Shown here: in pieces, positions 23,575 to 46,780 of the stretch | Numbering within the stretch: the first letter of the stretch is position 1 | Layout of the letters: every line of letters begins with the position of its first letter | Origin: an uncultured Nitrospiraceae bacterium | Lineage (GTDB): Bacteria; Nitrospirota; Thermodesulfovibrionia; Thermodesulfovibrionales; SM23-35 | DNA: 64,000 nt | Direction: 5' to 3' | Assembly: GCA_937138415.1 (NCBI GenBank) | Contig: CAKZPA010000026.1 | Location: forward strand, 1 to 64,000 | Made by a program: the position numbers and the translations under genes | Notes under the pieces: generated by a model | What the model was told of the DNA's origin: nothing | Databases searched by the model: none | The model's input: only the letters and a program-made list of their open reading frames with translations

Positions 23575-23797
23575 AAATGATCGAAACCTCTTTCTCCGGA
23601 ACGATGGTCGAAATAGCGTGTTTATACACCATCGACTGGCTGCCCTCTTTCAGGAGGATGACGAAATTGTCGAAGGCTTTTATCAACCCCTTCAGTCGCA
23701 CCCCGTTCGTGAGGTAAATGACGACGGGAATTTTTTCTTTCCTCAGTTGGTTCAAAAAATGGTTCTGAAGGTTCACGCCCTTCGTGGTATTCGACAT
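23549..23797 (-). CDS. hfq: RNA chaperone Hfq
   Basis: An 82-residue Hfq with the Sm1 and Sm2 motifs ([24 protein letters not shown] split over two strands, then [10 protein letters not shown], the classic Hfq C-terminal strand). It mediates sRNA-mRNA pairing. ATG 23797 follows GGAGGAGAAG; the frame continues 18 codons upstream but lacks conservation. miaA lies upstream on the same strand, as in many bacteria. Confidence 0.96.
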
Positions 23798-42139: not shown

Positions 42140-42310
42140 TCATCTGCTCTGAACCTCTTTCGTCACGATCAAGATACCCATCAGCGCGCCCACCAGAGCC
42201 CCGATCCAGGGACTGGATGTGATGATTCATCCGCTCCCGCTGCACTTCCCGAGATACCCGATGGCGCCACCAATGGCGGCACCACCAAACGCCCCGAGTA
42301 TGTATCTCAT
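42140..42310 (-). CDS. Small DUF6132-like membrane selenoprotein (in-frame TGA as Sec)
   Basis: A 56-codon gene in which codon 28 (plus 42227-42229) is TGA. Reading through it gives MRYILGAFGGAAIGGAIG, YLGKCSGSG-U-IITSSPW and IGALVGALMGILIV, that is two glycine-rich membrane helices joined by a C-x4-U loop. This is the layout of the DUF6132 family, whose loop reads about CxSGTCPITSNP; selenocysteine takes the place of the second cysteine. Continuation of the family pattern after the TGA, ending at a normal TGA with tail KEVQSR, argues against a true stop. A SECIS-like hairpin lies 18 nt after the TGA. GGAG is 8 nt before the ATG. Confidence 0.75.
42193..42216 (-). promoter_or_regulatory. Candidate bacterial SECIS element
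   Basis: On the minus strand CCAGTCCC and GGGGCTCTGG form a stem with a two-base bulge, closed by the hexaloop TGGATC, which contains the GG expected in SelB-binding loops. The loop begins 18 nt after the in-frame TGA; in E. coli fdhF the equivalent distance is 17 nt. An alternative shorter fold (ATCCAG/CTGGAT) competes, so the structure needs testing. Confidence 0.55.
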
Positions 42311-42372
42311 ACCACGTTCTCCATCATGGCGCGAGAAAGGTTACCCGGCATATGCCCGCTCATCATGCACAT
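42307..42372 (-). CDS. Possible 21-residue Met-rich peptide coupled to the selenoprotein
   Basis: A short frame (MCMMSGHMPG start, AMMENVV end) with seven methionines in 21 residues plus a histidine and a cysteine. Its stop overlaps the selenoprotein start (ATGA at 42307-42310), which would couple translation. There is no strong ribosome site of its own. It could be a metal-binding or leader peptide, or chance. Confidence 0.3.
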   Translation of the reverse strand: MCMMSGHMPGNLSRAMMENVV

Positions 42373-43389: not shown

Positions 43390-45798
43390 TCACAACGTTA
43401 CCCAACGGAGCCTCAGGGCGTTTCCGATAACCGAGACCGAGCTGAAGCTCATCGCGGCAGCGGCGAACATCGGACTCAGGAGAACCCCGACGAACGGATA
43501 GAGTGCACCGGCCGCCACCGGAACGCCGACCGAATTGTAGGCGAACGCCCAGAAGAGATTCTGTTTAATATTCCGCATCGTCGCGCGGCTCAAATGCCGT
43601 GCCCTCACGATGCCTCTCAAGTCCCCTTTTACCAGCGTTACCCCCGCGCTCTCCATCGCGACGTCGGTCCCTGTGCCCATCGCGATGCCGACGTGCGCCT
43701 GCGCGAGGGCCGGCGCGTCGTTGATCCCGTCGCCGGCCATCGCAACAATGCGCCCCTCATCCTGCAATCGTTTTACGTGTTGCGCTTTCTCTTCGGGGAG
43801 AACCTCCGCGATAATGTCGTCGATCCCTAACCTGCGGGCGACCGCTTCCGCGGTCGCCCGATTGTCGCCCGTGAGCATGATGATCTTTACGCCGTCTCTG
43901 TGGAGGGCATCGATCGCCTGCGGCGTCGTATCCTTGATGGGATCGGCGACTCCTAAAAGGCCCGCGATACGGTTGTCTACGGCGACGAAAACGACGGTCT
44001 GGCCATCGGCCTGCATCCGCTCGGCTTTTTGTCCCATGTTACCAGGATCGATGCGCATATCTTCGAGCATGTGACGGTTGCCGAGAACGACCGTCTTGTC
44101 CCGAATGATTCCCCTCACGCCTTTGCCCGGTATCGCCTCGAAGGATTCAGCATGCGTCGCCTCCACCCCACGCTCTTTCGCTCCAACGTAGATCGCGGAT
44201 GCGAGTGGGTGTTCGCTCACCTGTTCTATGCTCGCTGCGTATGCGAGAACCGTTTTTTCGTCATAGCCTTCCGTAGGTATGACCGACACAAGTCTCGGCT
44301 TGCCGACCGTTAAAGTGCCGGTCTTATCGAGAACTAACGCATCGACTTTTCGGAGAATCTCTATTGCTTCGGCGTTTCTGAAGAGAACCCCCGCAGATGA
44401 TCCTTTCCCCATGGCAACCATGATCGACATCGGCGTCGCCAGTCCGAGCGCGCACGGGCACGCGATGATGAGCACGGAAATCGCGTTGATCAGCGCGAAG
44501 GCAAAACGGGGTTCCGGACCAAAGAACGCCCAGAGAAAAAATGTCACTGCGGCGACCGCGACGACAACCTGGACAAAATATCCTGCAACAACATCCGCGA
44601 GGCGCTGAATGGGTGCTTTGCTCCGCTGGGCGTCAGACACCATCTCGATAATCTGAGAGAGGAGCGTGTCCCTGCCTACTCTTTCCGCTACCATGAGAAT
44701 CGTTCCCGTCCCGTTCATGGTCGCCCCGATGACTCTGTCCCCCATCTTCTTCTCGACGGGTATCGGCTCTCCAGTGACCATCGATTCATCGATAGAGCTC
44801 CATCCTTCGATGACTCGTCCGTCGACCGGAATCTTCTCCCCCGGACGTACTCTCAACACATCACCAGGACGTATGTGTCCGATCGGAACGTCTTCCTCCG
44901 ATCCATCCTGCCGCACTCGCCGCGCGGTCTTTGGCGTCAATCCGAGCAGCGCCCGCAATGCCGATCCCGTTTTTTCCCGCGCCTTCAACTCGAGGACCTG
45001 GCCGAGGAGGACAAGGGTCACGATAACAGCGGATGCTTCGAAGTAAACGCCGACGGTACCATGATCGCCTCTGAAGGAGGCCGGGAACGCCTCGGGGAAG
45101 AGAGTCGCGATAACGCTGTACCCATAGGCGACGAGCACGCCGAGCCCGATGAGGGTGAACATATTCGGACTTCGAAGGGAGACCGAACGCCAACCACGAA
45201 CGAGAAACGGCCATCCGCACCAAAGGACGACGGGTGTGGCAAACAGGAATTCTATCCATCTCTGCGTGCCCCGCCCGAGCACGCCATCGAGCGAGCCGCC
45301 GGGGATCATGTGCTGCATCGCGATGAAGAAAACAGGCACCGTAAAGAAGAGGCTTGCAATAAAACGCCGCTTCATGTCTTTCAGTTCGGGATTTTCGGGT
45401 TCTTCGATCGTCACCGTGCTCGGTTCGAGCGCCATCCCGCAGATCGGACAAGTGCCCGGGCTTTCCTGCACGACTTCCGGGTGCATCGGACAGATCCATT
45501 CAGTTCTCATAGGTGCAATAGGCGAAAGAGGCTCGAGGGCCATTCCACAGTGCTGGCACGAGCCAAACTGTTCCGCTTTTACTTCGGGGTGCATCGGGCA
45601 GGTGAAGAGGGAACATGTTTGCGCCGCAGAAGATTTGTCAGGAACCTGTCCGGGAGAGAGATACGATTCGGGATTCCTATCGAAAGACTCTTTACAGTGT
45701 TGCGTGCAGAAATAGTAGGTTGTTCCCTGATAGGTCGAGGTAGCGACGGCATCCGCCTCATCGATGACCATGTGACAAACGGGATCGGTGACTTCCAT
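43390..45798 (-). CDS. Copper-translocating P1B-type ATPase with YHS and metal-binding N-terminus
   Basis: An 802-residue P-type ATPase. The N-terminal YHS domain ([28 protein letters not shown]) is followed by two heavy-metal binding modules, each CPMHPEV...C..CGMALEP. The membrane core has the CPC metal site at 447-449 ([11 protein letters not shown]), then the phosphorylated D491 in DKTGTLT and the [12 protein letters not shown] and [11 protein letters not shown] motifs. This is the CopA/CopB class that exports copper. Of two adjacent ATG codons, 45798 has the better spacing to AAGGAG. Confidence 0.94.
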
Positions 45799-46016
45799 CA
45801 TTCTCCTTCGAAGTCAGTCTCGACACACGGGGATTGTTGAGACCCGGATGTTGTGAGAACCTTCGTTGTGCTCAGGATGACATGCCATCGTCCGAACCGG
45901 AGATACCCTCTGCAACGACGGTGTCGTTCCGCGTCCTTCAGCAAAAAGTTCCGCCGCGGGCTTATCGTGACGGTAAACTTACTTTCGCGCATTGCTCGCC
46001 GGATTTCAAATCCGAT

Positions 46017-46514
46017 CTAATGGTGAGGTGCTGACGGTCTCCTGTCCCCCTGTTCTTCAGTGGGCGACTCCGTCGGCGCGGCTGCAGGAGACGGTGGTTG
46101 GCCGGTCGCCCCGCGCAACATCATCCACCTCATCTCCGACATCATCTTCTCGATCCTGTCGAGCATCCTGTCCGTCTCCTTCTGCATCTCCCTCTTCTCG
46201 ACCGGACTCAGCCCCCTGATCATTTTTTGCTGCATTTTGACGACGTCTGCCATCATCTGCATCAAATCGCGCGCCATCATCCCATGCCCCATCATCCCGC
46301 CCATCATGGGAGACATCTGCGACATGCACTGCATCTGATGAGCGCCCATCATCATCTCCTGCTTCTCCATCTCCATTTTCGGGCATTTCATCGGCCCCTG
46401 CTGACCGGGGCGCACGGAAGTATCACCTTGCTGCTGCTCGGGAGCAGCCGTCTCGGCATAGACAGGCGAACACAGGAGAACAGCCACCAATAACAACCTC
46501 ACGACCGTGATCAT
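46017..46514 (-). CDS. Methionine-rich periplasmic protein, probable copper binding
   Basis: A 165-residue exported protein: the signal peptide ends around SPVYAE. The mature chain has about 28 methionines, clustered in MKCPKMEMEKQEMMM and MMGGMMGHGMM, with CPK and QCM cysteines. A helical DMM/KEM-rich segment follows and the tail is disordered P/E/S. Clusters of Met and His bind Cu(I) in CusF/CopK-like proteins. Position between the YHS gene and the copper ATPase supports a copper-tolerance role. Confidence 0.8.
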   Translation of the reverse strand: MITVVRLLLVAVLLCSPVYAETAAPEQQQGDTSVRPGQQGPMKCPKMEMEKQEMMMGAHQMQCMSQMSPMMGGMMGHGMMARDLMQMMADVVKMQQKMIRGLSPVEKREMQKETDRMLDRIEKMMSEMRWMMLRGATGQPPSPAAAPTESPTEEQGDRRPSAPHH

Positions 46515-46541
46515 AGTTCCTCCTTATTGTGCGACGGATTG

Positions 46542-46706
46542 CTAAGAACGCTCCTCTTTCTCTTTCTCAACGAACGTTTCAGGGTCCTTGTCGAACTTCT
46601 CCTTGCAGACCTTTGCGCAGAAGTAATACGTCGTTCCTTTGTAGATGCTGGTCGCCGCTGCTTTGTGTTCGTCGACCATCATCTTGCATACCGGGTCCTC
46701 TACCAT
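46542..46706 (-). CDS. YHS domain protein (54 residues)
   Basis: A small YHS-domain metal-binding protein starting MVEDPVCKMMVDEHKA, with YYFCAKVCKEKF. It closely resembles the N-terminal domain of the copper ATPase encoded downstream. GGAGGTGG lies 7 nt before the ATG. It is the first gene of a minus-strand group YHS, Met-rich protein (27 bp later), copper ATPase. Confidence 0.9.
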   Translation of the reverse strand: MVEDPVCKMMVDEHKAAATSIYKGTTYYFCAKVCKEKFDKDPETFVEKEKEERS

Positions 46707-46780
46707 AGATGCCACCTCCAAGATTTCAGTCGCAGAATGTGTAAGTCTAAGGAAAGGCTAACAGAAAGACGGACGGGTGG

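Follow-up and report, generated by a model that had tools for sequence, protein, structure and literature searches.

The minus strand of the window (the whole 64,000-nt stretch of DNA analysed, from an uncultured Nitrospiraceae bacterium) carries a short frame that is interrupted once by TGA. The locus thereby raises the question of whether this codon marks a damaged gene, is read as some other amino acid, or encodes selenocysteine (Sec) in a small membrane protein of the DUF6132 family (PF19628). An earlier note, made from the letters alone, had proposed the last of these and had suggested a role in redox or metal handling.

Results

Reading frame and family match

Translation of the minus strand bore out a frame of 56 codons with a single interruption, in which ATG and 26 further codons are followed by TGA at codon 28, by 28 more codons and by a TGA stop (Table 1). 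With Sec (U) at codon 28 the product would read MRYILGAFGGAAIGGAIGYLGKCSGSG-U-IITSSPWIGALVGALMGILIVTKEVQSR, a protein with hydropathy peaks of 1.35 and 1.74 and the central motif KCSGSGUIITSSPW. The read-through protein matched PF19628 at 43.3 bits (E 2.8e-11; Pfam cut-off 23.2), above the cut-off that neither half reached alone (N-terminal half: 16.7 bits, profile positions 7-30; C-terminal half: 18.1 bits, positions 35-54). Since the two halves match adjacent stretches of the profile, they are contiguous pieces of one family, in line with the earlier note's reading of them as a single protein. A six-frame search of the host genome with the DUF6132 profile recovered the same locus independently, with '1 TGA' inside it, and found no further members of the family in that genome. 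The C-x4-U motif, whose spacing is that of C-x4-C in DUF6132, was found at one place in the window and did not turn up in 100 shuffles. Cys23 is kept and the second position is TGA, so the protein has the two cysteines of the family only when Sec is taken as the equivalent of Cys.

Table 1. Positions of features in the window
Feature	Position	Strand	Description
Sec-DUF6132 gene	42140..42310	-	56 codons and TGA stop; codon 28 TGA read as Sec (from translation and PF19628)
In-frame TGA (putative Sec codon)	42227..42229	-	In the alignment column of the second invariant DUF6132 Cys
Codon 23, TGC	42242..42244	-	First invariant Cys (C of C-x4-U); invariant alignment column
GGAG, Shine-Dalgarno-like	42319..42322	-	8 nt 5′ of ATG; from sequence
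Candidate SECIS hairpin	42197..42214	-	AGTCCC-TGGATC-GGGGCT; -8.2 kcal/mol; within bSECIS constraints
Apical loop of candidate hairpin	42203-42208	-	Starts 18 nt after the TGA
Metal P-type ATPase cluster	43390-46721	-	ATPase with YHS and two HMBD domains
tRNA-Lys call (ARAGORN)	23698-23792	+	95 nt

Homologues with Cys

DUF6132 was found in 32 of 384 sampled Omnitrophota genomes, with an in-frame TGA in none of the matches; two matches report TAA or TAG somewhere within the match. All 29 alignable Omnitrophota homologues have TGC or TGT at the Sec site. In an alignment of 30 sequences, the site is occupied by Cys in 28/28 Cys homologues and by TGA in both Sec homologues, and eight columns are invariant (G10, G14, C23, C/U28, T31, P34, G41 and G45). 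Since C23 and C/U28 are among these, the TGA sits on one of two invariant cysteines, and the exact replacement of the second DUF6132 Cys, claimed earlier, held in both alignment column and spacing. Cys-type PF19628 proteins have in common with the Sec form their length, two predicted glycine-rich helices, the C-x4-C spacing and, beyond the second Cys position, a Thr and a Pro that never vary. The Sec form differs from them in Sec for the second Cys, I-I for P-L and S-P-W for N-P, and a SECIS-like hairpin overlies the altered codons. One Cys relative was recovered from a scan of genome contigs, and no relatives were found in plasmid and viral collections or in the PDB. Three viral contigs matched a loose pattern only.

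A second gene with TGA

A search of 231 genomes of the host's class for DUF6132 returned only two genes, both with TGA at the same codon: the window gene and one in G330 (locus L021), a genome from another genus of the same bacterial family. Five other matches from the same phylum (L022-L026) were segments of a longer unrelated protein, had no C-x4-C and were dropped. The full G330 protein is MRYILGAFIGAAIGGLIGYLGKCGGSGUIITSSPWIGALVGTALGILIAGR. Between the two genes, pN and pS (Nei-Gojobori) were 0.09 and 0.77 for codons 1-27, and 0.09 and 0.63 for codons 29-48. In the latter stretch 17/20 residues are kept and 10/14 substitutions fall at third positions; with 14 changes placed at random, as few residue changes arose in 7 of 100,000 trials (P = 7e-5). 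No similarity between the window and G330 was found beyond the gene borders, and gene order around the two genes is not conserved. Constraint after the TGA, together with similarity that ends at the gene borders, is not what untranslated DNA behind a stop codon would show. The earlier note had named a lack of conservation after the TGA as counter-evidence; G330 instead has the TGA in the same frame, with the downstream amino acids conserved. Homologues of both kinds for which the note had proposed to look, with TGA (G330) and with TGC or TGT (the 29 Omnitrophota genes) at this codon, were thus found.

Candidate SECIS hairpin

The bSECIS model specifies a loop of 3-9 nt, a stem of 4-16 bp, a G in the first two loop positions, a UGA-to-loop distance of 16-37 nt and an energy of at most -7.5 kcal/mol (PMC13188914). 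The hairpin downstream of the TGA (Table 1) fits this model, and two outer pairs are possible (42216/42193 and 42215/42194). The earlier note had the hairpin begin 18 nt after the TGA; this is the distance to the apical loop, whereas for the 6-bp stem the distance is 12 nt. G330 has a hairpin in the same register (AGCCCCT-GGAT-AGGGGCT, -11.7 kcal/mol), and differences between the two stems preserve pairing: from the window gene to G330, U-G becomes C-G, and two synonymous changes turn a C-G pair of the outer helix into A-U. A structure fitting the bSECIS model is present near the TGA site in both Sec genes and in 0/29 Cys homologues. The fold suggested by the earlier note thus agrees with bSECIS constraints, but folded as a single sequence it does not stand out from what its composition would give (z -0.7), an alternative stem register competes with it, and 6-8% of random synonymous encodings yield a hairpin at the same distance. 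Single-sequence folding was rejected as evidence for a SECIS element on the basis of this z score and chance rate, and the candidate hairpin, weak evidence when taken alone, gives consistent support rather than proof.

A comparison is offered by selD of the same lineage, also in a Sec form, in which an in-frame TGA likewise lies at a conserved redox position; SelD is a soluble enzyme and is unrelated to DUF6132. The selD transcript would carry a 5′ arm, AGUCC, at +13 to +17, the same register as in the Sec-DUF6132 hairpin, partly because both genes have Ser-Pro codons there. Its loop lies 17 nt after the UGA and is 3 nt long, whereas the loops of the two Sec-DUF6132 hairpins have 4-6 nt.

Sec machinery

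The host genome (2.1 Mb in 57 contigs, rated 100% complete) encodes selA (618.7 bits) and, on the same contig, selB (343 bits), together with selD (380.9 bits), likewise interrupted by an in-frame TGA, and a tRNA-Sec (74.2 bits) to which ARAGORN assigns the anticodon TCA. The absence of selAB, selC and selD, which would have spoken against the earlier reading, was therefore not observed. The full-length selD genes found in the host's bacterial family have an in-frame TGA, and selB scored over its cut-off in 17/20 genomes of that family, including G330, which also has a full-length selD with TGA. Most members of the family thus decode Sec.

Several further observations were made on these components. 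A second match to the tRNA-Sec family (54.3 bits, over the cut-off) lies on host contig C36 (L008, 1501-1598), where ARAGORN called no tRNA. Within the host's bacterial family, G164, G178, G282, G284 and G356 each have two full-length selB genes, and G282 and G397 each have two selD genes with in-frame TGA, reflecting either two parallel Sec systems or duplication. The tRNA-Lys called in the window (Table 1) was not reported by the Rfam tRNA model, and is possibly intron-bearing or a false call.

Predicted structure and gene neighbours

An AlphaFold2 model of low to moderate confidence (mean pLDDT 64) placed helices at residues 2-23 and 34-55, joined by the loop that bears C-x4-U. Neither Sec gene lies in an obvious operon. 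The window gene is neighboured by an oppositely oriented glycine-zipper lipoprotein gene, beyond which lies the metal ATPase of Table 1. Upstream of this ATPase are genes for a Met-rich small exported-looking protein and then a stand-alone YHS protein, and the cluster likely serves copper handling. In G330 a gene for an FmdB-like zinc-ribbon protein, identified by eye, lies directly upstream of Sec-DUF6132, and no metal gene was recognised beside it.

The commonest neighbours of the Cys homologues are flavoprotein disulfide reductases and thioredoxin. As raw counts, a CoA-disulfide-reductase-like flavoprotein, scoring below the equivalog cut-off, adjoins 8/29 Omnitrophota Cys loci (L028, L029, L032, L034, L035, L036, L037 and L041), sometimes with thioredoxin on the opposite side, and thioredoxin adjoins 3/29. 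Since the DUF6132 copies differ and gene order varies among the flavoprotein loci, a single recently inherited cluster is unlikely, and the adjacency suggests a functional connection that holds across DUF6132. These redox-type neighbours belong to Cys homologues of another phylum, and neither Sec gene adjoins such partners.

Discussion

A read-through frame in which Sec takes the exact place of Cys, its conservation in two genera and complete Sec machinery together indicate, at the level of sequence, that the window gene is almost certainly a functional selenoprotein gene with Sec at codon 28. SelB and Sec-tRNA-Sec would insert Sec at the TGA, guided by the hairpin just downstream; that this happens in the cell is what we infer. 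The 56-residue product would span the membrane as a hairpin, with two glycine-rich helices and, at one face of the membrane, a connecting loop that bears Cys23 and Sec28. Taken as a whole, the best explanation is very probably Sec insertion at the TGA, which would yield such a two-helix membrane protein; that its Cys23/Sec28 loop acts as a thiol/selenol switch is a more tentative proposal.

Only two Sec members of DUF6132 are known, both from one bacterial family, and the domain is rare in the host's class, which would suit a former Cys gene that has decayed by nonsense mutation, or an assembly in which TGC or TGT was miscalled. Such decay or error is scarcely credible given that two genera share the TGA, that the residues after it are strongly constrained despite near-saturated synonymous divergence, and that the Sec machinery of the host is complete. 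The nature of the inserted residue cannot be told from sequence alone, and a reassigned code or near-cognate suppressor might place another amino acid at the TGA. This too is very improbable, since TGA is the normal stop of the neighbouring genes and terminates the window gene itself, the residue replaced is an invariant Cys, and tRNA-Sec, SelA, SelB and a Sec-type SelD are all present.

As to function, the Cys-Sec pair could form a selenenylsulfide/selenol-thiol switch, with Sec as the more reactive residue, that would act as a relay, passing electrons or sulfane sulfur between thioredoxin or CoA-disulfide/persulfide reductases and the membrane. Because of the flavoprotein and thioredoxin genes beside Cys homologues, a thiol/selenol relay is the favoured role, and a membrane hairpin of 50-56 residues acting with these partners in redox or sulfane-sulfur transfer is proposed tentatively. 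Its main rival is a selenoprotein whose Cys-Sec pair binds or traffics a metal such as copper or mercury, instead of taking part in thiol/persulfide redox. The closest same-strand cluster in the window, with its metal P-type ATPase (YHS, HMBD) and YHS protein, points in that direction, as do ArsR-type regulators adjoining two Omnitrophota loci, a cation-efflux protein adjoining one, and the catalogue entries for MerT-like transporters and metal ATPases that contain Sec (PMC13188914). However, the lipoprotein gene of opposite orientation separates the ATPase from the window gene, and Cys homologues most often have disulfide-reductase flavoproteins and thioredoxin beside them, so that metal binding or trafficking is rather unlikely. 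Of the two roles left side by side by the earlier note, the neighbours of Cys homologues thus favour thiol/sulfur redox, and metal handling stands as a rival only.

No prior account of a Sec form of DUF6132 was found, in keeping with the earlier note. The catalogue of May 2026 lists 119 prokaryotic selenoprotein families and subfamilies, and DUF6132/PF19628 is not among them (PMC13188914 Table 1). NCBIfam release 20 holds no matching model, and no description was met in the literature searched, where the sole textual match to DUF6132 concerns nucleotide-sugar transporters; a 2026 groundwater-genome survey with new candidates, outside the scope of this search, might list one. Judged from sequence, Sec-DUF6132 is apparently a real selenoprotein family that has gone undescribed. 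Membrane selenoproteins already catalogued include the YeeE/YedE transporter with GUxSG, MerT-like proteins and the SO_0444 Cu/Zn transporter (PMC13188914); these are other families, compared here by catalogue only, in which Sec occurs in sulfur- or metal-handling membrane proteins, as is suggested for DUF6132.

Sec-DUF6132 would add to the catalogue a very small membrane selenoprotein, of a gene type that standard annotation misses or splits into two fragments below the usual length limits. Since Sec takes the place of Cys almost exclusively at residues with a chemical role, its presence would mark the second DUF6132 Cys as reactive and make the function of the family testable. If the proposed thiol/selenol relay is correct, it would open a first way into the function of DUF6132 proteins as a whole.
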